The notes under the pieces: generated by a model
What the model was told of the DNA's origin: nothing
What the model saw: the letters and a program-made list of their open reading frames with translations, nothing else
Database searches by the model: none
Shown here: piece after piece, positions 8,644-59,714 of the stretch
Layout: every line of letters starts with the position of its first letter
Numbering within the stretch: the first letter of the stretch is position 1
Position numbers and translations under genes: made by a program
NCBI RefSeq assembly: GCF_030463535.1
Contig: NC_132883.1
Span: 34,114,741-34,178,740 of the forward strand
DNA length: 64,000 nucleotides
Source of the DNA: Salminus brasiliensis
Taxonomy: Eukaryota > Chordata > Actinopteri > Characiformes > Bryconidae
Direction of reading: 5' to 3'

Positions 8644-8736
8644 TCACCTGGGAAACAGTGCAACCAAGATAGCCAAGAACGTTGCAGTAAGTGATGGTGT
8701 CAGACCTAATGCACGTCCACATTCCATAGAGTTCTC
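8644..8736 (-). CDS. cacna2d3: cacna2d3 last coding exon with GPI-anchor signal
   Basis: The acceptor is TTTTGCCCACAG. It encodes ENSMECGRALGLTPSLTATF then LAILVALFPR and TGA. The layout Cys-Gly, short spacer, hydrophobic run of about 14 residues and very short tail is that of a GPI-attachment signal, as known for alpha2delta proteins. Mammalian alpha2delta-3 has ECGGA where this reads ECGRA, so the modified residue may be the single Gly or a neighbour. Confidence 0.93.
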   Translation of the reverse strand, partial: ENSMECGRALGLTPSLTATFLAILVALFPR

Positions 8737-11700
8737 CTGTGGGCAAAAGAGAACAATAAAACAGATGAAATGAACTGATCATTATAAATACAGTAGTGCT
8801 CTAAATACAGTTCTAAACATGTTTTAAATTTGAATCTAAAAGACATGAATTCATAATTAATGTTTCATTTTTGCTATTTTTTTTCCTAAATGTTCAGTAT
8901 TTTCATATTAGGGGAGAGTGGGGCACAAAGTAACACAGGGTAAAAGTGCAATGTGGTCTTTTATATGTAGTCAAGTAGAATATGCTTATGGACAGGTATT
9001 TCTTCAACTTCTTTACCTGTAATTAAATCTTGACTTACTTATTATTTTTTTTATAAACTTAAGTTTTGATGTAACCCCTAAAACAGCCTAGGGCCTGCTG
9101 ACGGGCCAAAAGTGTTCTTGTAGTACAAAAGAACAGACCCACCAGTTTGTACAGAAGTCCCTGTAGTTACTGAATAATACGCCGTAGTGTGTAATAAGCC
9201 TTTCTGTGTTAAGGTGTTAGGTCACCTTCTAGGTGCCTGAAACGCTGTATTACTTTAAAGCACTTTAAAACTACTCACTGTGAGAACAAGCCAAGCTAAA
9301 GTACAGACTCCACATGAATAAAAAAAAAAAGGGTTACATCGTTATAAATTTCATCACAAATTTACTACAGTTCTCATAATTTATATGCAGTTGTATGAAA
9401 AGGTTTGAAAAAAATAAGATGCTGATTTTCTATGTGTAAATAACTTTCTTATGTACATTCTAAAGCATAATTACGGTTTAGAAGCTTAATTGAACATATT
9501 GACAAAGAACATAAAATGGCCTGAGAATACAAATAATGGCACTTTTAAATTGCATTTATTTATCTTTTTCAAATAAATAGAGTGTGCACTTTAAAACATA
9601 CAGGATATTTAAATATTTAAGTTCATGTCCTGTAGAAGATTTATTTAATTGTTAAATCGAATGTCATTTGTCCAGCGGCACAACGACTTTTGTATACTGT
9701 ATATATAAAAAACATTATAAATATTTATATTTAAATAAACATTATAAATATATAATGCATTGCTGATAAACAGTTGGTGCTGGAAGCAAAGTTTGTATTC
9801 TCATCTGTAGCAGAGATGTAGAGGCTGCTTGTGTAAAACTATTATTAATATAATAAAAAATTATGGAACAAAAATAAAACAACTAATTTGTGCCCCGCTC
9901 TTTCCTACACACTGACACTGCATTTTATTAAAAAACATAGGTGAAAAAAATCAAGTTCTCAAACTGATCCTCAGGCCTCCCAGACGGTCCACATTTTTTG
10001 CTCGAACCATACGTGTTCGTGAGTTGTGCTAGAGCACAAATCCGTCGGGCCTGAGGACCGGTTTGAGTTCTCTGTTGTTCTTTTGAGCTTTTCGAGGTAC
10101 CTCGGGATGGAAGGGGTGGCATGTTTCTGGACGCCTCCTGTCTTTCTGCAGCTTCAACCGCTCACATTTCAGAGATTCATTATGTGCAGCGAGGTTAAGC
10201 AAAACACACATGTAGCTGACACAGAGAAATCTAAAAACCTAGTCCACCAGCTTGCATAACTGAAGGAAAGCAGTTGCTGGTGCGCTAGGATGTGTGCAAA
10301 CCCTGCAATTGTAATATGACAGCTTGTTTGTGAAGTTAGACAACACTAAAGTAATTTAATGCTACTCAGATCCTAAATCAGCTAGAACTGCACTTGCGTA
10401 TTTATCATTCGCTGGGTCTTCGAATGACACACTCAGGCATGCGTCTGCAGAGCTGACGAAGAGCAGCTTCAGAAAACGATGCTGTCAGGCTTTGAGCATC
10501 AGAAACAGACCGGACCCAAATGAAGCCACCCATTTGAGCTTTTTTTGTCAAGAGAACGTCTGGTGTTGATCACTGGTCCATTCCAGGCCATTGTGAAACG
10601 CAACATCTGTTGGTGTTTCGCTTCGAGAAAGAGAGAGAAAGAGAGAGTGAGAAAGAGGAAGAAAAAGAGAGAGAGAGAGAGAGAGAGTGCATTGTATTCA
10701 AAAAACCTCAGCGTCTTCAATGATGGAAATCCATGGATTTCAGCACAAACATGTCGCATGCTTTTCATCTCCATGCATACAAAAAGGCCAAATAAACTCT
10801 CCCCAAAGAAAAGAAGCCGCAAATTAAAATCCTACCTATTTTTTCTCCCTTAACCCTCAGCATATTGTTCTCTTTTATGGGTCAGATGAAATACATCAAT
10901 TTTAACGAGCATAATAGGATTGGCACCCCGGAAATTTATGGGACAGTTATGTGTATTAAATTAATACATGAAAGAACACCACACTGTAGCAGTGTTCTGG
11001 ATCCTATTTAGTTTGTAAGTTTTTTGTGCTTTTTTTTGTTTTGCTGATCATGTATAAGAGGTAAACCAAACAAACCAAGACAGAGAAAAACAGACCTTGG
11101 AGCAGCTCATGTTGGAACAATAAGGGCTATAATGAGAACCTGCCCATCCCTGCCGACAGTTGGCAGGCTGGGAATTCAAAGAGCCGACATTACGGTTTTA
11201 TTACTAATGTTGTTTGGTGGCAAACTTAAACTTGCTGCTGGTAAATTAACTGATAAACACCATGCCCAGGCAGGACGGATCCTCCGACTCAAATTATATA
11301 ATGTTATAAAAACGAATCTAGAAGAATTTGTCACATTATGCATCAAATAAACCCTTTCGAGAAAGCACAAAGACAAAATTAGTGAACAACTTAACCTCAG
11401 AACCACCAAGTTGTGGATACCGGCTTATTTTCCCTTTGTTATAGCTTACGAACAACTCCTCCAGTGTGCACTGCTTGTAGTGCATGTAGTTATTGATTAG
11501 TAATCTTTAGGGTATAATAACAGTCACAGAGCATAAGGGGTTTTAAATCTCTTCTGATTATACTGAAAGCCCAATACCTTTTTTAGTACTGCAATTTGGC
11601 AAACAATTCAGTACAATAACTGTCAATACTTCCAATACTTTCATTTTTTATAAAAAAAAATCTAGCACATGCTCGATGCTGTGTTGTCTGCATTTAAAGA

Positions 11701-14700
11701 TTTCTGTACTAATAAAAAGACAGACTAAATAAGCTATACAAACCTGAGCTTATGATGAACGGTTTTCCCTTATTGCCTTAGTATTGTTTGGTGTCGAGAA
11801 CTGTAATGTTACAGTTCTCGACACCAGTATCAGTATCAAAATGAAAGCTCTGGTATCGTGACAACCATAGCTGGCAGTAATAAGTCGTCAACCACAGAAT
11901 GACTCTGCCAGGCCCTTCTGCTCCAAAACAAAACAAGAGACTACTTCATGCACCATGAAGATGCACTTTGGCATGAGAAACGTGAAATACAATTTGGTGA
12001 GTTTACTGAGAATCATAACGTCCATAATGCACAGTAATAACATGTGTAATGATCTGTCATCGACCATGCAGCAAGTCGTGGCACCAGAACTGCCGTTTTG
12101 GATGGGCATGACAAATCCGCGGGTGGGCCGAATTCGAGTTTCGCTCCTGCGGGAGCAAGGGGGAATATAGGCAAAAAACATAGTATAAGCATAACTGAGC
12201 CGTTTGCTGAGTGTCATTTTAAACACTGGAGAAGGAAAAAAACTGCAGTGGGAGACACTGGCTCATTAGTCGACCAGAACACATAAAACTCATGAGCTCA
12301 TGATAGAAAAACTACACTCTGATCTTTCCTTTGCAGACAGAAGAAATAAGGACCAAGATAACTTCCATATACTGGTGATTTCTACCATTTTTCATGCCTT
12401 TGTTAATGAGATGGGTGATGATTGTTCTGCGTTGAGACATAGCTCAGTAGAGCTACTACAGTAATGGTTCAGTAGCTGTAGTTTTAATTTGTAGCTATAA
12501 TTTGTGCTTGGCTACATTTAAGCGTTAAACAAGCCTCATTCATATGCTTTCAGCAATGGTCTTTCTCCTATTGATCTCCAAAACACTGACTTTAATAGCT
12601 GGACAGTCAACTCATTCCTCATAAGGACAATGAGAAGGACCCCTAGATTCAGACTGTAAACGCCACACTCTTACAAATATACATGTTATGAATGGTTGTT
12701 TGAGCAATTCCATCAAAAAAACACTTCTGTAAAACAATATGTTCGAAAAGATGTGTGTGAGTGTAAAGAAGCTTTAAATATGACATCAAGTTAAGGTTTT
12801 TAAACCCTTAAAAGGTTCTTTACTAAACCAAAGGTAGTTTCTTTAAGTCATTGCTCATAGAACCCTTAGTAGTGATGCCGCACAGTTATGCTTACTGGTT
12901 AAACTAGGCTTTCTGGGTGGCCTAACGGTTTAACTGTTGGCCCTAATATTATGAGAATACAGATTCGATTCCTAGTGATGCCACAACCCTCTCCCGTATT
13001 TGCCCACCCTTTCCCCTTCACTTTCCCCATCCCCATCACTTCAGCCAATGCAGAGGCATGTCAGTGGACCAGGCAATTGGAGTTCTCCTCCAAGCATGTT
13101 CATCTGTTCAATTTCAAATGTGTCATGTATGCAATAAGTGAATTGTAATGTGTTAATTTAGTTTACTCATTAAGGCATTATCTCATGCAGCATTGTTTAT
13201 CCCTCTTTTCTTTTGTAAAAGGATATACATGATTTCAATGGGGTCCATAGTGATGGGTCCATAATCCCTGCATATACACTTGTTGTCCACCACCACCATG
13301 AAGAGGTTACTGCTGGGAATTTGTTGAATGACGAACGACCTCGGAAAGACAAGAGACAAGAGAGAAAAACACGAGAAACATGATGTTTCTGTATGTGTGT
13401 GTGTGTGTGCGTGCCTGTGTTTGATGGGTGCGTATATGTTTTATAGTTCAAAATCTGTGAGACTGTAAGAAGTTTTAGGCAGATGCCAAAAAGATAACGC
13501 ACATCTCCGGCCACCTCATCTCTCAATTGTGTCTCTCGCACACACTTTCACGCACACGACATATTTCAAACAGGCCGAACGGGTGTGATATGTATATGTA
13601 TTAATGAGTTCGTACGTGCCAAGTGGACCAATGGGCCTCCATCCTTTGCTCTGCTCCGCCAGATGTGCTGCCATTGTTTCATCCTCACTCACCACTTTTA
13701 TCAAACCTCGCAGAGTGAAGGCAAAGGCTGGCCAATGAAGTGTTGCAAAATATAAAACATTCAAAGGGGGGGGGGGGGACAAATTGGAACCACACATTCC
13801 AACTTTTTTTTTTTAACAAGGTTTTTTTTATAGGTTGAGGAGATGGATTCTGAGCTGAAGTCGGCGTCCCTGATTTATGCATCTCTGCGAGACTTATGGG
13901 AAGGAATGGTATAGAGGATGATCCCTCTCTCTTTCTTTATCTTCGTCTCCCTCTTTTTTTTTCCACAGTGCGTGTGATTTATGGCCCTGCCCGTAGAGTG
14001 GTTTATCGCACATTTGGTGGAGTCTTGTCCGCTCGGCTAGAACCTTGGTGCAGACACGCTCAATCTATCCCAGATACACGCTGTCTGGGGCAGAGTGGCT
14101 CGATACAATCAAAGAGTCTGACCCAGACTATCTATTTCAAGCCCAGAGATGCACTGCTTAGCACATGATTTAGCACTGGTCATGAATTAATTCTTCAACA
14201 AATGCTTTCTTTATGAGAGAAATTATACTTGGACATGTTGTAAAATTCTGAATACATGCAGTGTAAAATTCAGGCTACAGGTTTTTGTGGTTTAATACAT
14301 CAGTCAGTTAGTTCTTTAAAACAGAAACATTCAAAATTCTCAACCATAGCTCAGTAAAACGAGAAGAGAAAGTGTGTAAAGAGTAGAATAATGCGTAGAA
14401 GTAGTAGAGGAGATATTTTCAAATAACAGAACGATCTTGTTGTGGGTACAGTCGTGCTTTGCTTTGTGAAAGGTCAATTTTACGTCTCAGTGTTGTTTTC
14501 CAGTACCGAAAATGGGCATTAACATGTTTTGTACTTGGACACTTGTATACTTAAGTATATTAAATATTATATAAACTATATAAAAAATATATAGTTTATA
14601 TATAAACTATATAAACTATATAAAAATATATGGGATCACACTTATGCACTGATGAAATACATGTAAAGTAAAAAAAGTAACGTGCACGTGTTTGTCACTG

Positions 14701-24782: not shown

Positions 24783-26790
24783 CCTCAATATTTTTATATT
24801 TGGAATGAGTATTGAAACAGTCATGGTCTTAGTCTATGAGCCTTAGTCTTCTTTTTCTATATGCTTGTTTAGAATTTCCACCTACTTGATGCAGTCTTCA
24901 CAGTCAATGTTCCCTGTGGTCTCCTTAATGGTTCTCTCTGAGATGAAGGCTGGGTATTCTGTATCGCACGGAACCAACATCGTCCGACCATCTCTATGAG
25001 CTAAAATAAGAGACAGAGATAAATAGTTAAATAGATATATACAGGCACACAGACTGCTAGACGGAGAGAGGGAGAGAGAGAGAGACAGCGAGAGAGAGGG
25101 ACAGAATGAGAGAGAGAAATTATATGACCTCAAACTATTCTTTTCTGGAAGTGGGAATATCAGTGTCTCAGGCAATCCATCATGCAGAAACAGTTCTAAG
25201 TATATGACAACTGAACTCCTTTCAATGCCAAAGGCAATCATGAGCATGTTTGCTTAGTTCTGATGCCACCTAGTGCTTGCATAGGTAACTGCAACCACCC
25301 AGGTTCACACTTTGCTGTCACAGTGTGTATTTGCGTTTATGATGATCTGATTTCATATTGTATAATTATATATAAATACCATACAAGCAGGATAACACAG
25401 TGAAAGCACATGTTAAATGTTAAAAACGTACAAAATTGACTAAAACTGGCTAAATTTATGTAGAATTAGCACTGCTTTTTTAAGCTGAGGTTAATATGGG
25501 TCTGAGAAACTGACCATTAGACAATTTAACAAAAAAAGTTATTTGAACAAAGTTGTTGACATTTTTGCATATGACTAATAATTAATTATAGCAAATATAA
25601 AAAAATATAGTAATAAATACAATTAATGATTAATACATGATTATACATGTATTATGTTATGGTAAAACATGTAAAGATACATGTTTATAACATTTTGGAT
25701 CTAATTACAAACATATTATTATTATTATTATTATTATTGAACTAAAATGTTTTAACTTACTTATTTAAATTATTTATATTTACAATGTAGCCTATAAGGT
25801 GTGCCCAGACAACCTTACAACCTATTTACCATCTGTGCACTTCTCCAAAACAGGCCTAATTCAAGGCTTCTTTCACTTTATTAGTAAGGACATGGGGTAA
25901 ATACTCTCTGTAAGCGGATTGGCAGAGGAATGAGGCTTAAATGTAGATCTTTAAAAGTCAGCACTGTCTCGTTGTGCCGCTGCCATGTTCCGTCTGAACT
26001 GAGGCAGGGATTTGTTCGGCTTCGTGAACACAACAGATTTGCCCTGCTGCTGGTTTTATTGGTGTGGATCGCATTTCTGTATTGAACTCTGCTCTACAGG
26101 TAAATGAGCACAGTAGCAGCAGCCAGCGGTATGTGAAACACTACAGTGATAAAGCCTGTAGAACTGGCCTATCTGTGTAGGATAATGAACACAGCTCTGA
26201 AAACCGTAAGTCAAGTGCCCGCTGGATTTTACAGTCAGAAACCTACAAAGCTAACTCCATCCACTGATTTTTTACATGTATTTAAAATGTATTGTTTTTT
26301 TACACTAATTGACACTGTGGGAACATTTCATGATGAACGGAGCAAATGAAATGGTCCAGTTGTTCCTTCTTCTCTAAACCCACCATTTGACTTCGTTAAA
26401 CCAAAAGAAGTAATCATACATATGCTGAGTTATGGCATCATGGTTAAGAAAATGTTTTTAATTGCAGCCTATGGTGTGTGTGTGGTGGGGGGTAACATAT
26501 CTCAGAGTAAAAACTACAAGGGATTTACAAAATTTATAATGGAGATATGTTTCAGGAAAGCCAAAAGTCAAGTATCTTTGGATTTACGAACATTTGAATG
26601 CCCCCTCGTACACTAATTTTAAAGGCAGGGACACCGGCTGAAGGGTAGAAACCGATGAACATGCTGTGAAATAACTTATGACTTAAAGTGCTTCACCCTG
26701 GCAGAAACAGGTCTGTTATTAAGAAGCGGATATTGCTCTAAAACACACTTTTCACAGTTCATAAAGTGTCTCGCTCAATAGCCACTAGAG

Positions 26791-26840
<50 letters not shown>

Positions 26841-29800
26841 ACACTTGCACAGGTCAGTTGAGGTGAACAGTGTTTGGCATTGCTGTCCTTTTGAATTTCC
26901 TCTAAGTGTATTTCTGAAATCATAACGAGCTGAACACAGTCCAGACATTTGTGTGCATGTGTGTTTATGTGTGTATGTATTCTTCATTTGACAGTGAAGC
27001 AGTGTGCACACTGAACAAAGACCCGTAGGAGATGTTAAAAAAGAGTGAAATATAAATTTTCTTTATAACTGAAATTATTTAAAAGGCTCTTATTATTTTT
27101 ACATTCTCTTCTTTGAGGTCCACTTCTAATTCTGCCTATTATTGTGTCTTATTTAATAAGCTGTCAGGGCTGCAACACTACTTGAAACTTTGGCATAAAG
27201 GGGCAAGGTTAAACTGTTGTAGGCTGAGTGGGTGGAGATATGTATTTGTTTTAATGATGTCACCAAAACAATCTAATTAAAAAGAGCTGTTTAAGCAGTT
27301 TATTTTCCGTGTATGGACTGTATGGATTGGGGACGGAATGGTTCATTAAGAAAATTTCCTTCTTAAAATAGAACAATAAAGTCTTTTATTGTCAAAAAGG
27401 CAAAGCAAATTCGTCCATTATATGGGTTCTTTGAAACCTTTGTATAACTGTATATATTTCTAATTTACTGACCCATTGTTCTCCTCCAATCAACCAGTAG
27501 AAAAATTCCTTACAGCAGCCAATTCACAAATTATTAATTAAAGCTGACTTTAGTTTTATTTGCCTAAAAAAAATAGTTAACAGAGCCTCTAAAAAGTTAA
27601 CAGAACAAGAATCTGTCTTACATTGACTGATTTTCTGAAGTTTTAAAGTAACCAAATTCTGAACTCATTTATAACTTTTCATAGTTCAGAGTTGTAAAAA
27701 AAACTATATTATTATGCAAACACTTGGCAAGCCTTAATTAATTCATGGGAAGTCGACATTATTGCCAGAGATCTCAAAATAATTGCTAACATTATGAAAA
27801 TGATATATTTTTACACAATGTGAATTTGGCTGGTTGAGCATGTCAGTTCCAGACAGTGTCAGTCCTCACCCTCCCAGTGTGGGTAACATTACATGTGATA
27901 GGGGAGAAAAGTAACAAGTGGGTTGGCTATCTAAACTGGGTCAAATATAAAAAAAAAAAATAAAAAAAAAAGCAAACACACTGAAACATACCCTTAACAG
28001 TAAAGTCTGAGTGCCACCAGCCATACAGGTTAAATTCCAGCAGAAATCTGTGGGCAAATAGAAAATTCACAGGTGACAACTGAGAAAAAGAGGGAACGGG
28101 AGAAAGATAACAACTTGAAACTCGCTTAAAATATTTATAGATGACTTTTTTGACTGCAATCAACACCACTGACAGAGCTAAACAACAACAAAAACAACAA
28201 CAATGTAACCAAAGTCAGCACTATGATGTCAGCCCACCCAGGAGTAACCGAGGTTGTAAGCTCTGCAATGGCGCCAGGTTCATAGAGGCATTCTGGGATT
28301 CCCCCAGCTAAGCTCCATCAGGCTTTCGTTAATTTACGAAGTTTTGGAAGACGCCGCTGCCAAAGCCCCATGCATATATCACCAGGCTAACGAGAGGTCT
28401 CAAAAATGCAGTCAGTTTCTTACATGACAAGCTCGGTCAGCAGCCACTTGACGGTTGCGAAGAAGGCGAAGTAGGGCTGCGGGGAGGAGGAAAGCCATCA
28501 ATCAGAAAACAAACGGTAAACAGTAAACAACAACAAGATCAGCATGGGGCACATGCGGCCGCACAGATACGGAGAGAGGCAGTAAAACACTGAGGGTTTA
28601 TTAGGAGTGAAGGGTCTGTGCTACATACTGATGCACATGCACGCGCGTACACACACACATGGACGCACACACACACACGCGCAGGGCGGTGGAGGTTTTC
28701 GCCACTCCACGGATGTGGCTTCCCCTCATCACTGAGTGGGTAGACCACCCCAGAGACAGGGATGTAAAGTGTGTGAGAGTGAAGTAGAGAGAAGGGAAGA
28801 CAAAAACACAGAGAGAGCGAGAGCGAGAGAATTAAATGTGCTCAGAGAGACACGAGGCACATTCACTCAATAATAACAGCATTATGAAGGCGTTATTGCA
28901 TCCAAATGCATTATTATTATGATCAAGCTAGATTCATTTATGCTCACGTCTAATAGCCTGCTCGAACCGTCGCTGCTTTCTGCATAGATTCTGCAGATGG
29001 CCTGATAGTCATAAAGAGTCACCCTGATAGAGACAGAGACAGAAAAAGATAAACAGTAATTAATACATTTTTATTAAGGACTCATATAAGGGTCTAAATA
29101 GGGGAAAGAAAAAAGAGAAGGGGGGGGGTGCTCTGATACATGGTACATGATACATGTTTTAGAACAGTGTGCTGCTTTTCAGATACCAGCCTAAATCACT
29201 TCCAATGTGCTCATTTTGCTTTTGCAACTAAGCAATTTGCTAAAATCCATTTGGAATGTGTGTATATTCCCAGCCCAAAAAACATAAAATATGCATGAGA
29301 CAGTGCATCAGACAGATAAAACATGAAATACAAGGTGGCGTAACAGTGTCATTTCAACACAACTGAAATTATGCAGTATAAAATCCTCCGTCTGAGGTCC
29401 CTAGAGTATTTGTGCAGTGTGCAGCGAGAGAGAGTAACAGGGGGGGCAAGACAGAAATATAAAGAAATAAAAAGAAAGAAAACAATAGAAAGAAAGAAAA
29501 ACAAATGAAAAAAAGAGATAGAAAGTAAGAATGAAAGTGATATAAAGAAAAAGGATAGAAAGAAAAGAAGAAAGAAAGTGATAAAAAGAAAACAGTACAA
29601 AGAAAGAACACAAAAAAGTGATATAAAGAAAATATATCTATGAATAAAGTGCAACAAAAACAGAAAGAAAAGAACTAAGAAAGTGATGTTAAGAAAAAAA
29701 TAGAAAGAAAGTTAGAAAGAAATTAGAAAGAAAGAAAAAAAGAAAGAAAAAGTGATATAAAGGGAAAAAATAATAAGGGGAAGAAAGAACAAAATTAAAA

Positions 29801-35500: not shown

Positions 35501-36022
35501 TACCTCTTAAAAGAGCCCATTGCCAGTAATCTACTCATGACAGCCCCCTCTGCCTCTCCAAAGAAGACACCCGTCTGTGAGAGACAGATAGCGAGAGAGA
35601 GGCAGAGAGAAAGAGAGATCAGATTTTAAGACAATATCAAAAAGATAAAGGAGAAGAAAGACAGTAGAGACTAACACAGAGCTAAACTGGCTAGAAGAAT
35701 AGTAGCCAGTAAAAAGAAAAAAAGATCATGTGATGAACAAAAGACGAAAGCTCACTGACACAGCCTGAGGAATGACAGGATCCTTAGTGACGTGTGTGTG
35801 TATGTGTATATATGTGTGTATGTGTGTGTGTGTGTGTGAACAGGTGATTGCACATGTGATAAATGAATTACAGTGGCTGCCATACAAATGTGAAGACACA
35901 AATAGAGCAACAGTATGAATACCAGGAGAGGTTGCTGTGGAAAACGATTATATAACTGATTCCTGCTCTATAAAGCAATGATTCACAGTCTGAACACCCT
36001 ATGTAATATAGAGACCTCTAGA

Positions 36023-36090
<68 letters not shown>

Positions 36091-39000
36091 TATACCCACC
36101 TACCTATTCACAAGCATTCATAAGATCTCTAATCTGCAGGATTACACTGTGGAAGGTAACAAATGTCTAACCAGAATAGAATAGAATAGTAAGTAATGGT
36201 GAGTGTTTAGTAACAACATTACTATGTGTGCTGTAGTATTCAGAATATAAAAATGAATTATGAACAGCTGTTTACTTGTCACTTTATAGTCATTTCAAAG
36301 ACACTTTGTCTTTTACATTTATGTCATATTGAAACTGCACATATTGTAATGTATTACCCAGATTTTGTCTCTTCTTCTTTTGTCTCTATGTGCTATTTGT
36401 GCTAATAAGTAACAGTAACTCTTTTGGGGCCCAAAGTTTAATACCCCTGTGTTTAAAATAATCTCGAACAGAGCTACATTTTCTCATTAAGTTATATCTG
36501 AATAATGACCCAAATGTTTTCAAATACATTATAAACCTGCGTATTCTCACCTGTGTATTTCCTTTATGTTACTCATTATCATAAAAGTCTTACCAAAGAG
36601 GAGTCTTCAGCCACTAGGATAAAACCATTGTTGTCTATGAGGTAGCAGTTGATGTCCTGCAAAAATTAACAAGAGGAAACACAGGCAAGGACATGAAAAG
36701 TACACTGTTGCAGTTAAGAGGTTTGCAATATGGTGGTGTGTTATTGTTATCGTGACACAATATTTTTTGAGTGCATTGTAGATATTGTCAGTACGTAAAG
36801 GACGCTGATCTGCTGAATATTCCTTTCATGAAGCATGATTAGTCATGTTTAACTTTGCTCACCACTAGTAGTTGTGGGGGATACAATGGAGTAACGTCAG
36901 GCGTCAAGTTTAAGGACTCTTAAGTTGATATTCAGTTCAAGTTCACGTCGTTTATAACGGACTATGTTGACATTCTGTTCACGTCTCACATCATGTTTCT
37001 GTTAAGTTAGATTCAGGTGTATTTGGTACTGTTAATTTGGTTCACTGATTTGGTTCACCTGAGGCTGGGGTATTTAGGGAGCTAACGCTGACATTCTCGT
37101 GGCCGAGAATTTGCCGTTCTGAGCAAACCTGGAGTGTTGGTGTGTGTTCACGGAATCGAGGGTCGAGTCATTGTTTCACAAGGACGTCTACGAGAGTCCA
37201 TCACGTTTCCAAGAGTCCTGCTGGGCTATTTCTTGTTCATGAGAGTACTACTGCTCTGGTTTGTGTTGAGTCGCCTTGAGGAAAAGGCGACTGATCCCTA
37301 GGCTTCGTGTTCACATCCTGTAAGTTTGGTTGCGCCTGATGAGCGCTGTTTACGTTTCTCCCTAGCCTTTTACTGGCATGGCCAGTGTCCTTAGTTCTTG
37401 TTTTTCTCTCCCTGTTTTAGTTTATCTGCTCACGCCTAGCTCCCTGGCTATCCTCCAGCCTCAGGTGGCTTTCGTGTTTTTGCCCCATGTTCATTTGTCA
37501 AGTTTGTATTTTGGTTAATCATTACTTCCTGTGTTATTGCTGCGTTCTTGTGTTTACCCCTGTTTTGTTGCTTAATAAAGCATCCTTGCATTGCACTGTC
37601 CCTGCGAGTTTTCACCCGTCATTGTTTGATCTAGCCAGTCATGACAATCACTAATAAAATGATCCATGGCACCAAATATTTTTACACAATTACTACAAAC
37701 CACTCTTAAAATAGAACCGTTGTGTGCTGAATGACATATTTGTGAATGTCATTTAAAGTGTGCACACAAGCTCCCTTTAACTACAAGACTGCTTTATCTT
37801 TATTTTCTTTTTCTTTATTATGGTTTTCTTTATCTTCTGTATCTGTACCTACAAATGTGGTTTTATTGATCAAAAACAATGGTAATATATACATGTAAAG
37901 AGATGTGACCTCTGTTCTATTTGATTGGCTTGTATTTGTCATGCCTGCCCTCTTCTGTTAAGTCTGCCTCTGTTTTGTGCTGCCATGTGCTCCCAAGCTC
38001 TATTTGTGTCTTGTCTGTCCTCGCCCCGTCTGTCCCTTAGTGTTCCCACCTGTGTCTCTTTTGTAACCACGCCCCCTCGTTACTTCCAGGTGTTCCTTGT
38101 TATCCTTCCTATAGTACCACTTTGTTCATGTCGGTGTGTGTTCATGTAAGTTTTATGGTTTGTTGACTTGGCCTGTTTGTGTGTTTCTTGTATTGTTTTC
38201 TTTGGTAATCAGTCTTCAAGCTCGACGTACCGTGACAGTATTGTATAATTCAATTATATAATAATACCACAATTTACTTTTAAAATACTAAAACAAGAGC
38301 TGTGATAAAAACTATTTTGCTGTTTTCCATTTCTTTTTAACATAATTTGAATGGACAAATAGAAAAGGTGTAAAATAAATATGAAAAAATCTTTTTGCAT
38401 AGACTTCCGTGAAAGTTACTTTTTTTTTTTTTTTTTTTGCACAACAAGCTGATGTGTATATACTTACATCATTGTCACAGCTGATAGAACACCTCCCATC
38501 CAGAGCAGCACACTGAGGTAAGAGAAAAAAGCCATTTATATTACGTTGTACATTCTGCGAATGTGTATTTGTTAGTGTTAATAAGTACAGCAAAACAGTT
38601 ACATATCTAATTTGACTAGTGCCAAGAACATTTATAACTTTCAGGTTATACATTATGATTATTAGGCATATTTGGATATTAAGATTATACTCTAATTGGA
38701 TATAGTATATCAATATTTTACTTATGTTAATAAGCCAATTTAGTTAACATGAATGAAGTTGCTCAAGTCATTCAAGCTTTGCAGTGTTGTATAGCTACAT
38801 GTTTGTAGCCATACACTATTTTTTTTCATTACAATATATTTATGAAATGTTATTAATTTTATATTTTATTTGGTCTGCTTTTGCCTTAAATTAAGTGATG
38901 TTTATTTCCTCTGTAAGAGTTGGTCAACAAGAAACAATGACATATATTAGTCATTATATTATGTAGCAAGGTAAAGATAGCACTCAGCAGAATTAGCTAT

Positions 39001-39113
39001 GGTTTGGAACTCATAACAAAACAAAAAGCAATTGTAAATAAGGGTTTTTACCTGTCTGCTGGCAGTCCAGAACTTTCTCTGAAAGAACTCTAGTTTCATC
39101 TGGATCCCCACAG
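8644..39113 (-). CDS. cacna2d3: cacna2d3, 3' portion (alpha2delta-3 calcium channel subunit, C-terminal 275 aa), 11 exons
   Basis: Alpha2delta-3 is an extracellular, GPI-anchored auxiliary subunit that promotes surface trafficking and gating of high-voltage-activated calcium channels. Eleven minus-strand exons join in phase: 39113-39052, 38512-38468, 36656-36594, 35574-35504, 29023-28948, 28476-28424, 28047-27992, 25000-24886, 13339-13227, 10183-10101, 8736-8644. They total 830 coding bases: 275 codons plus TGA, with one split codon opening on the missing upstream exon. Diagnostic stretches include VGIQMKLEFFQRKFWTASRQ, CYLIDNNGFIL, CDTEYPAFISERTIKETTGN, SFVIQQIPSSNLFMVVVD and NESLKCERL. These match alpha2delta-3 rather than alpha2delta-1 or -2, which have clearly different residues here. 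The human protein is about 1,091 aa, so roughly the last quarter is present: the end of the extracellular Cache region, the delta part and the GPI signal. The rest lies beyond 64000. No frameshift or stop was seen. Gene assignment is very likely; the exact paralogue suffix in a teleost cannot be told. Confidence 0.95.
8737..10100 (-). other. cacna2d3: last intron of cacna2d3
   Basis: GT-AG intron (GTACCT to CCCACAG) almost filled by a roughly 1-kb AT-rich element with terminal inverted repeats. Confidence 0.8.
8911..9905. mobile_element. MITE-like element with GC-rich terminal inverted repeats
   Basis: GGGGAGAGTGGGGCACAAAG at the left is mirrored by TTTGTGCCCCGCTCTTTCC at the right, with only a few mismatches over about 19 bases. 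The interior is AT-rich with no ORF. A similar GGGGAGAG end occurs near 50974. Confidence 0.55.
10101..10183 (-). CDS. cacna2d3: cacna2d3 exon J (penultimate)
   Basis: The exon opens with AT, completing T|AT (Tyr), directly after an AC dinucleotide. It encodes NESLKCERLKLQKDRRRPET and CHPFHPE. The donor is GAG|GTACCT, phase 0. Reading through the donor would replace the GPI signal with a basic tail ending at 10029, so splicing to 8736 is preferred: it restores the family's HPEEN..ECG sequence. Confidence 0.94.
10621..10690. repeat. GA-rich simple repeat
   Basis: Imperfect (GA)n/GAAA purine tract inside the U12-type intron. Confidence 0.9.
11560..11885. repeat. MITE-like relic containing a 38-bp palindrome
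   Basis: The stretch carries repeated AGTACTG/AATACTT/GTATCAGTATC words and a GTATCGTGACAACCATAG end typical of small fish MITEs. At 11789-11826 two 18-base arms (TGGTGTCGAGAACTGTAA and its exact complement) are separated by 2 bases. Confidence 0.45.
12905..13110 (+). mobile_element. tRNA-derived SINE
   Basis: GGTGGCCTAACGGTTTAACTG resembles a pol III A box and AGATTCGATTCCTAG a B box about 45 bases later. The tail is C/T-rich without structure. Confidence 0.65.
13227..13339 (-). CDS. cacna2d3: cacna2d3 exon I, ends at a U12-type donor
   Basis: The acceptor is CTTTCCGAG after a long pyrimidine tract. The first base completes Lys; the exon then encodes SFVIQQIPSSNLFMVVVDNK, CICRDYGPITMDPIEIM and one base of a Tyr codon. 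The exon is followed not by GT but by ATATCCTTTT, the consensus 5' splice site of AT-AC minor introns. The cysteine pair differs slightly from mammals (CICRDYG versus CLCESVA). Confidence 0.95.
14560..14632. repeat. AT-rich hairpin/direct repeat (ATATAAACT unit)
   Basis: ATATAAACTATAT and its complement ATATAGTTTATAT flank A-runs, and the ATATAAACT word repeats several times. Confidence 0.8.
14764..14930 (-). mobile_element. tRNA-derived SINE (minus orientation)
   Basis: On the minus strand, GGTGGCTCAGCGGTTAGAGC (A box region) is followed by GGGTTCGATTCCCGGG (B box). The downstream part contains GGGCCCTTGAGCAAGG, typical of a common fish SINE. It adjoins a (CA)n at 14737-14766. Confidence 0.8.
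16328..16383. repeat. (GT)n microsatellite
   Basis: About 28 uninterrupted TG units. Confidence 0.97.
17873..18130. repeat. diverged tandem duplication, period about 144 bp
   Basis: TTTCAAACATCGTA at 17873 recurs at 18017, and ATATAAACCTAATACTACTT at about 17965 recurs as ATATAAACGTAATACTACTT at about 18108. The middles are alignable but diverged. Confidence 0.6.
18770..19745 (-). mobile_element. Tc1-like transposon relic
   Basis: Read on the minus strand, this is a decayed Tc1-family transposase gene. Recognisable plus-strand phrases are GGTCTGGGCTCTGGCTGGGC, CATGATGCTACCACCACAAT and GAAGTGGCTTCTGTCTGGCC. Stops and frameshifts break it throughout. Confidence 0.8.
20809..21502. mobile_element. 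MITE of the CAGTCATATGCAAA family
   Basis: The left end CAGTCATATGCAAAGGTTTG follows TATA. The inner part ATGTTTTGTTGATTTTGTCA is matched by the complement AAATCAACAAAACAT near 21472, and AAACCTGTTGCATAT ends the right arm with a deletion. The interior is AT-rich and non-coding. Confidence 0.65.
23371..23420. repeat. (AAT)n-(ATT)n palindromic microsatellite
   Basis: About eight AAT units run directly into about nine ATT units, a perfect hairpin. Confidence 0.95.
23590..23770 (+). mobile_element. SINE-like repeat
   Basis: TTTGATCCTCGGCGATGCCA resembles a B-box region of a tRNA-derived SINE, and the rest resembles other fish SINE bodies. Confidence 0.45.
24748..24779. repeat. (CA)n microsatellite
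   Basis: About 15 CA units, 107 bases from cacna2d3 exon H. Confidence 0.95.
24886..25000 (-). CDS. cacna2d3: cacna2d3 exon H
   Basis: The acceptor is CTTATTTTAG and the donor is ATCAA|GTAGGT. It encodes HRDGRTMLV, a species-variable linker, then PCDTEYPAFISERTIKETTG, then NIDCEDCI, and splits a Lys codon with the next exon. The CDTEYPAF and ERTIKETTGNI..CEDC motifs are near-identical to mammalian alpha2delta-3. Confidence 0.96.
26792..26838. repeat. (CA)n microsatellite
   Basis: About 23 CA units. Confidence 0.97.
27275..27428. repeat. 154-bp segment, copy 1 of an interspersed near-identical pair
   Basis: From AATTAAAAAGAGCTGTTTAA to CCATTATATGGGTT it matches 31022-31174 with about one substitution and one single-base indel. 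It contains AATAAAGTCTTTTATT, a small hairpin carrying AATAAA on both strands. Confidence 0.9.
27992..28047 (-). CDS. cacna2d3: cacna2d3 exon G
   Basis: The acceptor is TTGCCCACAG and the donor is AAGG|GTATGT. The first base completes Ile; the exon then encodes FLLEFNLYGWWHSDFTVK and ends with one base (G|CT, Ala). It matches FLVEFNLCSWWHSDMTAK of mammalian alpha2delta-3. Confidence 0.95.
28048..28947 (-). other. cacna2d3: two short cacna2d3 introns (28048-28423 and 28477-28947)
   Basis: Both are GT-AG introns: GTAAGA..CCCACAG (376 bp) and GTGAGC..CCCGCAG (471 bp). The second has (CA)/(CG)-rich simple sequence around 28630-28680. Nothing else seen. Confidence 0.85.
28424..28476 (-). CDS. cacna2d3: cacna2d3 exon F
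   Basis: The acceptor is CCTCCCCGCAG and the donor is GTCAT|GTAAGA. It encodes PYFAFFATVKWLLTELV and ends with AT of an Ile codon. This corresponds to the hydrophobic ...AVKWIMTELV stretch of mammalian alpha2delta-3. The exon is noticeably GC-richer than its surroundings. Confidence 0.94.
28948..29023 (-). CDS. cacna2d3: cacna2d3 exon E
   Basis: The acceptor is CTCTATCAG and the donor is GAC|GTGAGC. The first base completes AG|G (Arg); the exon then encodes VTLYDYQAICR followed by a variable IYAESSDGSSRLLD. The alpha2delta DYQ(A/S)(I/M/V)C motif is present. It lies 6.5 kb downstream of exon D. Confidence 0.94.
29447..29840 (+). repeat. long polypurine (GAAA-type) tract
   Basis: Nearly 400 bases are dominated by A and G on the plus strand (AAAGAAAGAAA words), with rare T and C. 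The cacna2d3 transcript therefore contains a long polypyrimidine run here. Confidence 0.95.
30050..30560 (+). mobile_element. Tc1-like transposase relic
   Basis: AAGCATGGTGGTGGTAGCAT then CATGCTTTGGGGCTG is the well-known 'KHGGGSIMLWG' segment of Tc1-like transposases. Flanking sequence is decayed, with no long open frame. Confidence 0.75.
30660..31017 (+). repeat. LTR-like repeat, truncated copy
   Basis: It begins TGTCATACCTGCCCTTG and matches 37937-38237 over most of its length (for example TTTTGTAACCACGCCCC-like and TTTTATGGTTTGTTGACTTG blocks). It ends near a TTAATAAATACC poly(A)-like stretch and runs straight into copy 2 of the 154-bp segment. Confidence 0.75.
31022..31174. repeat. 153-bp segment, copy 2 of the near-identical pair
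   Basis: It matches 27275-27428 in the same orientation, 3.7 kb away, in a different cacna2d3 intron. It abuts the end of the LTR-like repeat. Confidence 0.9.
31298..31346. repeat. (TG)n microsatellite
   Basis: About 24 TG units. Confidence 0.97.
31735..32045 (-). mobile_element. MITE of the 'ACACTATATGGACA' family, copy 1
   Basis: CTACTAGATTTTGGAGTATT, ATGGAGCACCATCATTCCAG and the end GTCCACAAACATTTGGACAT match three other window copies. Non-coding and truncated. Confidence 0.7.
32491..32531. repeat. (AAT)n microsatellite
   Basis: About 13 AAT units. Confidence 0.95.
35504..35574 (-). CDS. cacna2d3: cacna2d3 exon D
   Basis: The acceptor is TCTCTCACAG and the donor is AAGAG|GTAAGA. It encodes TGVFFGEAEGAVMSRLLAMG then SFK, ending with two bases (AG) of an Arg codon. 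The family signature FFGE...GAVM..LL.MGSFKR is intact. Confidence 0.95.
35575..36593 (-). other. cacna2d3: cacna2d3 intron (1.0 kb)
   Basis: GT-AG intron (GTAAGA to CTCACAG) with a GA-rich start, a GT-rich patch at 35790-35838 and a (TA)n at 36025-36084. Confidence 0.85.
36025..36084. repeat. (TA)n microsatellite
   Basis: About 30 TA units. Confidence 0.97.
36594..36656 (-). CDS. cacna2d3: cacna2d3 exon C
   Basis: This 21-codon phase 0/0 exon has acceptor TTTTTGCAG and donor TTG|GTAAGA. It encodes DINCYLIDNNGFILVAEDSS plus Leu, the conserved 'cysteine, then DNNGFIL' segment of the alpha2delta extracellular domain (DDGGFLL in alpha2delta-1). Confidence 0.95.
36880..37646 (+). repeat. LTR-like or unknown dispersed repeat
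   Basis: About 0.77 kb of GC-balanced sequence unlike its AT-rich flanks, with no ORF. It has a promoter-like GGGGTATTTAGGG at about 37069, AATAAAGCATCC at about 37574 and the terminus CAGTCATGACA. The left boundary and any target duplication were not resolved. Confidence 0.45.
37937..38237 (+). mobile_element. solo LTR with 5-bp target-site duplication
   Basis: It starts TGTCATGCC and ends CGTGACA. GTATT immediately precedes (37932-37936) and follows (38238-38242) it. Terminal TGTCA/TGACA is a short inverted repeat typical of LTRs. A related copy lies at 30660. No internal retroelement coding sequence is present. Confidence 0.75.
38468..38512 (-). CDS. cacna2d3: cacna2d3 exon B (45 bp microexon)
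   Basis: This 15-codon exon runs from ACCTCAG to GAT|GTAAGTA, phase 0 at both ends. It encodes CAALDGRCSISCDND, a Cys-rich loop with three cysteines that corresponds to the CASLDGKCSISC region of mammalian alpha2delta-3. It follows exon A after a 539-bp intron. Confidence 0.93.
38513..39051 (-). other. cacna2d3: cacna2d3 intron (539 bp)
   Basis: GTAAAA to TTACCTCAG; AT-rich, nothing else seen. Confidence 0.85.
39052..39113 (-). CDS. cacna2d3: cacna2d3 exon A (first in window)
   Basis: The acceptor is TTTCCAG after a pyrimidine run and the donor is CAG|GTAAAA. The exon starts with two bases completing a codon (G|CT expected, Ala) and then encodes VGIQMKLEFFQRKFWTASRQ, ending in phase 0. It matches the juxta-delta segment of alpha2delta-3 almost residue for residue. 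The preceding exon (expected to end in a DERKSPVVA-like peptide) was not found up to 64000. Confidence 0.95.
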
Positions 39114-43337: not shown

Positions 43338-44884
43338 CAAACTGGATTCCAAAAAAGTTGGGACACTAAACAAAACTGAATGCAATGATGTGGAGATGGC
43401 AAATGTCTATATTTTATTTGTAATAGAACATAGATGACAGATCAAAAGTTTAATCTGAGTAAATGTAACATTTTAAAGGAGAAATATGTTGATTCAAAAT
43501 TTCATGGCGTCAACAAATCCCAAAAAAGTTGGGACAAGTAGCAATAAGTGGCTGGAAAAAGGAAATTGAGCATATAACGAACAGCTGGAAGACCAATTAA
43601 CACTAATTAGGTCAATTGACAACATGATTGGGTATAAAAAGAGCTTCTCAGAGTGTCAGTGTCTCTCTAAAGCCAAGATGGTAAGAGGATCACCAATTCC
43701 ACCATTGTTGCGCAGAAAGATGCAGCAATATCAGAATGGTGTTACCCAGCGTAAAATAGCAAAGACTTTTAAGTTAACATCATCAAAAGATTCAGAGAAT
43801 CTGGAACAATTGCTGTGCTAAGGGTCAAGGCCGTAAAACTCTACTGGATGCTCGTGATCTCCGGGCCCTTAAACGTCACTGCACCTCAAACAGGAATGCC
43901 ACTGTCAAGGAAATAACAGAATGGGCTCAGGAATACTTCCAGAAATCATTGTCAGTAAACACAATCCACTGTGCCATCCGCCGTTGCCAGCTGAAACTCT
44001 ACAGTGCAAAGAGGAAGCCATTGCTAAGCAAGCTCCACAAGCTCAGACGTTTGCACTGGGGCAGGGGTCTTTTTCTTTGAGTGTGGCAAAATGGAAGACT
44101 GTTCTGTGGTCAGATGAGTCACGATTTGAAGTTCTTTATGGAACACTGGGACGCCATGTCATCCGGACCAGAGAGGACAAGGATAACCCAAGTTGTTATC
44201 AACGCTCCGTTCAGAAGCCTGCATGGGGTTGCATGAGTGCTTGTGGCATGGGCAGCTTGCATGTCTGGAAAGGCACCATTAATGCAGAGAACTATGTTCA
44301 GGTTCTAGAACAACATATGCTCCCATCTAGACGTCATCTCTTTCAGGGAAGACCCTGCATTTTTCAACAAGATAATGCCAGACCACATTCTGCAGCAATC
44401 ACAACATCATGGCTACGTAGGAGAAGGATCCAGGTACTGAAATGGCCAGCCTGCATTCCAGATCTTTCACCTATAGAGAACATTTGGTGCATCATAAAGA
44501 GGAAGGTGCGACAAAGAAGGCCCAAGACGATTAAACAGTTAGAGGCCTGTATAAGACATGAATGGGAGAGCATTCCTATTTCTAAACTTGAGAAACTGGT
44601 CTCCTCTGTACCCAGACGTCTGTTGAGTGTTGTAAGAAGAAGGGGGGATGCCACACAGTGGTAAAAATGGCCTTGTCTCAACTTTTTTGGGATTTGTTGA
44701 CGCCATGAAATTTTGAATCAACATATTTCTCCTTTAAAATGTTACATTTACTCAGATTAAACTTTTGATCTGTCATCTATGTTCTATTACGAATAAAATA
44801 TTGACATTTGCCATCTCCACATCATTGCATTCAGTTTTTATTCACAATTTGTTTAGTGTCCCAACTTTTTTGGAGTCCGGTTAG
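43338..44884 (+). mobile_element. Tc1-like transposon, near full length, IR/DR type ends
   Basis: The 1.55-kb element is flanked by TA at both sides (43336-37 and 44885-86). Its roughly 200-bp terminal inverted repeats each carry two copies of a CAAAAAAGTTGGGAC core (43350 and 43520 at left; complements at about 44676 and 44858 at right), the IR/DR layout of Sleeping Beauty-like elements. It encodes a broken DD34E transposase. Confidence 0.9.
43678..44664 (+). pseudogene. Tc1-family DD34E transposase, frameshifted
   Basis: The start MVRGSPIPPLLRRKMQQYQN at 43678 reads into a stop at 43819-43821. The remaining DNA-binding and linker part is spread over other frames. From about 44080 to 44664 the catalytic part is open: SDESRF (first Asp), QDNARPH (second Asp) and SPIENIW (Glu) with 34 residues between the last two. 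All three catalytic residues are kept, but the protein is not continuous, so the copy is probably inactive. Confidence 0.88.

Positions 44885-47260: not shown

Positions 47261-59714
<12,454 letters not shown>

Follow-up and report, generated by a model that had tools for sequence, protein, structure and literature searches.

A predicted U12-type AT-AC intron in an alpha2delta calcium-channel gene of Salminus brasiliensis and its counterparts in seven further loci of the genome

An alpha2delta gene on the minus strand of the window, by which we mean the whole 64,000-nucleotide stretch of Salminus brasiliensis DNA that was analysed, contains a 3043-base intron (13226-10184) that starts with ATATCCTTTT and ends with TTTTGCTTAACCTCGCTGCAC. 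This is almost certainly a U12-type intron, ancestral in the alpha2delta family and with AT-AC termini in this copy, which would be removed by the minor spliceosome. The assignment as U12-type AT-AC, already made in an earlier note on this DNA, is upheld by both splice sites, by the way the alpha2delta protein aligns over the junction, and by seven more loci in the same genome. Conservation across the eight loci is the strongest evidence for the predicted minor intron.

The finding is correct and of a known kind, the family being already listed as holding minor introns. In excerpts, PMC6865273, citing MIDB, counts all four alpha2delta genes among the minor-intron genes, and PMC8767276 names CACNA2D1 to CACNA2D4 as minor-intron genes. 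The human genes are members of the same family, each reportedly with a minor intron like the fish gene, and the possible novelty of minor introns in alpha2delta genes raised in the earlier note falls away because the human genes are in both lists (PMC6865273; PMC8767276). As excerpted, these listings give neither intron position nor subtype, and the human introns presumably occupy the same position as the fish intron. What is added here is the conservation across eight loci and the split in subtype. Among the matches listed in the literature on alpha2delta/CACNA2D minor introns and subtype switching, no position or subtype split was described.

Gene model and intron boundaries

Eleven exons (39113-8644, minus strand) join in a single frame that encodes 272 alpha2delta residues and a stop (Table 1). 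Nine of the ten introns in the chain are GT-AG, and one (13226-10184) is AT-AC. The gene is a putative cacna2d3, a name that rests on the human C-terminus. Seven of the 11 exons came from a splice-plus-codon score, while the exon at 29023-28948 and the three C-terminal exons were picked by reading; the long-frame listing was too noisy for exon choice. For the exon at 24886..24991, the phase called for a start at 24991 in place of the scored 24993. A candidate exon at 42180-42146 and other unused splice-plus-codon rows were left out of the chain.

The exon at 10183-10101 is not terminal, as one further coding exon (8736-8644) follows it; the hydrophobic C-terminus of this last exon is probably a GPI signal. 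Residues 1-249 match the Pfam family VGCC_alpha2 (PF08473) with 92.7 bits (cut-off 22) and an E-value of 3e-26. No match was returned by a Pfam scan of the exon upstream of the intron alone, or by an Rfam scan of the window. An earlier version of 226 residues, in which some exons were missing, also hits solved alpha2delta-1 chains (best E-value 4.9e-11), and a 95-residue C-terminal piece aligns with solved alpha2delta-1 chains through the junction, weakly when taken alone (E-value 0.019). The alignment with alpha2delta-1 contains one single-residue gap, which lies a few residues upstream of the junction.

Table 1. Exons of the assembled chain, signals of the minor intron, candidate major-type sites, and 5' splice sites of the eight loci
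Feature	Location	Strand	Basis or remark
cacna2d3 exon, first in assembled chain (not necessarily the gene's first)	39052..39113	-	splice-plus-codon score
cacna2d3 exon	38468..38512	-	splice-plus-codon score
cacna2d3 exon	36594..36656	-	splice-plus-codon score
cacna2d3 exon	35504..35574	-	splice-plus-codon score
cacna2d3 exon	28948..29023	-	reading
cacna2d3 exon	28424..28476	-	splice-plus-codon score
cacna2d3 exon	27992..28047	-	splice-plus-codon score
cacna2d3 exon	24886..24991	-	GT-AG introns on both sides; start by phase
Exon 5' of minor intron (SFVIQQIPSSNLFMVVVDNKCICRDYGPITMDPIEIM + T)	13227..13339	-	joined frame
Exon 3' of minor intron (NESLKCERLKLQKDRRRPETCHPFHPE)	10101..10183	-	ends at GT donor, GAG|GTACCT
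Last coding exon, encodes ENSMECGRALGLTPSLTATFLAILVALFPR + stop	8644..8736	-	hydrophobic C-terminus
Predicted U12-type AT-AC intron	10184..13226	-	3043 bases, phase 1
5' splice site ATATCCTTTT	13217..13226	-	perfect U12-type match
Branch site TTTTGCTTAAC	10194..10204	-	10/11 against TTTTCCTTAAC
3' terminal dinucleotide AC	10184..10185	-	read at intron end
Weak U2-like donor GT, CAT|GTATAT	13227..13228	-	rank 746 of 3983 GT sites on strand (splice matrices)
Candidate U2-like acceptor AG	10216..10217	-	+10 residues, in frame with GT at 13228
5' site ATATCCTTTT	window, C25		AT-AC
5' site ATATCCTTTA	C2		AT-AC
5' site ATATCCTGCA	C19		AT-AC; last 3 bases differ from ATATCCTTTT
5' site GTATCCTTCT	C13, C7		GT-AG
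5' site GTATCCTACA	C2b		GT-AG
5' site GTATCCTTTC	C25b		GT-AG

The intron interrupts the frame in phase 1, between the exon that ends at 13227 and the one that starts at 10183 on the minus strand. U12-type branch sites are close to TTCCTTRAC, with some 10-16 bases between them and the 3' end of the intron. The branch site TTTTGCTTAAC is one base off TTTTCCTTAAC, and the 11 bases between its second A and the intron end fall within that range. The 5' site at 13226-13217 agrees throughout with the U12-type consensus ATATCCTTT (RTATCCTTT); a U12 splice-site consensus is in print in the excerpts of PMC6259924. The termini are AT and AC, and the 3' junction itself has no AG, the closest one upstream ending 32 bases away. 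The exons join as T|AT, a Tyr codon, followed by NESLKCERL. The earlier note had described a perfect minor-spliceosome 5' site after the exon ending at 13227, a near-consensus branch site about 11 bases from a terminal AC before the NESLKCERL exon (TTGCTTAACCTCGCTGCAC), the lack of an AG acceptor, and a codon joined as Tyr, and all of these are borne out at those positions.

The intron in eight alpha2delta loci of one genome

The genome searched was the window's own assembly, which comprises 1,066,335,885 bases (1.07 Gb). Thirteen places matched the C-terminal peptide: three belong to the window gene, six lie in loci on C25, C2, and C19, and four were weak. The weak matches (L018 to L021) were discarded, as they showed no alpha2delta pattern on reading. 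A search with an alpha2delta-1 segment gave six places in four loci, namely C13, a second locus on C2 (C2b), C7, and a second locus on C25 (C25b), with two of the four found at weak E-values (0.067 and 0.376). The eight loci are to be read as at least eight, and more alpha2delta copies may exist, because the search scores the best candidates only. Junctions in the relatives were placed by hand from frame, homology, and U12 motifs. The relatives are presumed to be cacna2d1-, cacna2d2-, and cacna2d4-like from their similarity.

All eight loci have a U12-type 5' site (RTATCCT) at the homologous codon in phase 1, and in all eight the split codon lies six residues before a conserved Cys. The comparison with paralogues at this junction, which the earlier note had proposed, comes out in favour of a minor intron at all seven other loci. 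The termini are AT-AC in the window gene, its near paralogue on C25, and the two cacna2d4-like loci (C2 and C19), and GT-AG with GTATCCT sites in C13, C7, C2b, and C25b, which are cacna2d1-like and cacna2d2-like. A branch site within one mismatch of TCCTTAAC is found in six of the eight loci; the cacna2d1-like loci C13 and C2b have weaker ones, with two mismatches in eight. The four AT-AC introns each end 11 bases past the branch A, at lengths of 3043, 208, 550, and 337 bases, and over the eight loci the minor intron ranges from 163 to 3043 bases.

In a tree of the eight peptides (49-50 residues), the four AT-AC loci and the four GT-AG loci form separate groups (100/100); a long-branch warning applies to this tree. 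Each half has one resolved and one unresolved pair: the window gene joins C25 at 95/99 and stands apart from the remaining six loci, and C13 joins C2b.

The two cacna2d1-like loci, L031 and L032, keep the GTATCCT 5' site, but their branch sites (GCCTTAAT and TCCTGAGC) are weaker than those of the other six, a combination that would not be surprising in a GT-AG minor intron on its way towards the U2 type. Two contigs carry a pair of loci each. C25 has a cacna2d2-like locus and a cacna2d3-like one, 0.78 Mb apart (23.54 Mb and 24.31 Mb), and on C2 a cacna2d1-like and a cacna2d4-like locus lie at 37.4 and 42.9 Mb. These shared-contig pairs may be a trace of tandem copies that existed before genome duplication.

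Predicted splicing route and proposed change of subtype

In the minor splicing pathway, U11 and then U6atac act at the 5' splice site, and U12 acts at the branch site. In the window intron, U11 followed by U6atac would pair with ATATCCTTTT and U12 with the branch site TGCTTAAC, after which the minor spliceosome would excise the intron and join the exons T|AT to give Tyr before NESLKCERL. Translation of the retained sequence shows that, if the intron stays in, the frame stops after 14 further codons, so that the conserved Cys-containing segment NESLKC...HPE and the hydrophobic tail would both be lost. A transcript that kept the intron would be expected to decay or to give a protein without its membrane anchor, and it may fairly be inferred that the C-terminal maturation of alpha2delta-3 would need the minor spliceosome.

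The intron sits just before the C-terminal, probably membrane-anchoring, segment. Its presence supports listing accessory calcium-channel subunits, besides pore subunits, as minor-spliceosome-dependent genes, and with both on the list, defects of the minor spliceosome could hit both parts of the channel. In the genes of the SCN and CACNA1 pore subunits, U12-type introns were reportedly described by Wu and Krainer in 1999. These pore genes are also voltage-gated channel genes with conserved minor introns, some of them AT-AC, according to excerpts of PMC6259924, whose U12 passages, as excerpted, concern the pore-subunit intron only; they belong, however, to a different family from alpha2delta, and we claim no homology between the introns.

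Among the alternatives, the one that survives best is use of the major spliceosome for all or part of the splicing, with the GT at 13228 as donor and the AG at 10216 as acceptor. It would add 10 residues (...IEIIYMCVLLNLAAHNESL...), and we regard it as very unlikely. This GT-AG pair is present in the window copy and would keep the frame without a stop, and its AG scores 2.60, compared with 2.64 (rank 151 of 3756) for the used acceptor at 13339. Its donor is poor when ranked by splice matrices (Table 1), although a low donor score is no bar, given that the accepted donor at 10100 scores 0.24 (rank 351 of 3983). The other loci speak against it: GT is missing from that place in the three other AT-AC copies, of which two have one 7 bases upstream instead, and in all seven further loci the joined peptide keeps its spacing to the conserved Cys, without an insert.

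Still less probable, indeed highly improbable, is that the AT-AC intron is excised by the major spliceosome, as some sodium channel introns are. AT-AC ends alone leave the choice of spliceosome undecided, according to excerpts of PMC2831892, but in the same excerpts the AT-AC introns of the major spliceosome carry G at +5, whereas the window intron has C at that position, together with the full ATATCCTTTT and a U12-type branch site.

The 5' motif alone is not rare, and its weight lies in its exact position at an exon end. RTATCCTTT has one copy on the two strands of the window (1.40 expected; at least one copy in 74 of 100 shuffles). With up to one mismatch allowed, TTTTCCTTAAC has five copies in the window (2.29 expected), a number reached in 9 of 100 shuffles. 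Three of the five have AC or AG 8-17 bases past the second A, and only the match at 10204-10194 precedes an exon of the assembled chain. By simple arithmetic (1.40 and 2.29 over 128000 positions), about 1e-5 copies of each motif are expected at one given position. The case goes well beyond chance, and its weight lies in both motifs being placed exactly at exon ends. A chance arrangement was dropped as practically negligible, despite the abundance of ATATCCTTTT genome-wide (2785 copies, fewer than the 3187 of a reversed control), in view of two motifs at codon-consistent exon ends and the same arrangement in seven other alpha2delta loci.

The homologous intron is AT-AC in the cacna2d3- and cacna2d4-like genes and GT-AG in the cacna2d1- and cacna2d2-like genes. 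One old minor intron with a single change of subtype would be the simplest reading of the eight loci; one change would suffice because the two subtypes fall on opposite sides of the tree. A fuller history, which we propose tentatively and would put somewhat below even, is that the minor intron predates the alpha2delta split, has stayed U12-type in every copy found, and changed subtype once, so that the 1/2-like genes have GT-AG and the 3/4-like genes AT-AC.

Subtype switching of U12-type introns in other genes is described in the excerpts of PMC2831892, where, as here, the copies of a homologous U12-type intron differ in being AT-AC or GT-AG. The switching in those excerpts is among orthologues, whereas the present split is between paralogues of one genome (PMC2831892). 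The eight loci provide a clean example of what looks like a subtype switch within one family and one genome. If there was indeed one switch, the two halves of the family would be natural paired substrates for comparing the response of AT-AC and GT-AG introns to limiting U6atac or to minor-spliceosome mutations.

Neighbouring features of the window

Two open frames at 53288-59714 (plus strand), upstream of the 11 cacna2d3 exons and on the opposite strand, seemingly form one leucine-rich-repeat transmembrane gene. No Pfam family was matched by its C-terminal frame, and its leucine-rich-repeat part matches many solved leucine-rich-repeat proteins. The gene resembles lrtm1, which in human lies nested within CACNA2D3. 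Pieces of Tc1/mariner-type transposases are found on the plus strand at 43873-44664 (DDE_3) and at 1160-1624 (HTH_Tnp_Tc3_2 and a sub-threshold Sleeping Beauty HTH), and frames at 19622-18797 on the minus strand resemble, by eye, another broken Tc1-type transposase.
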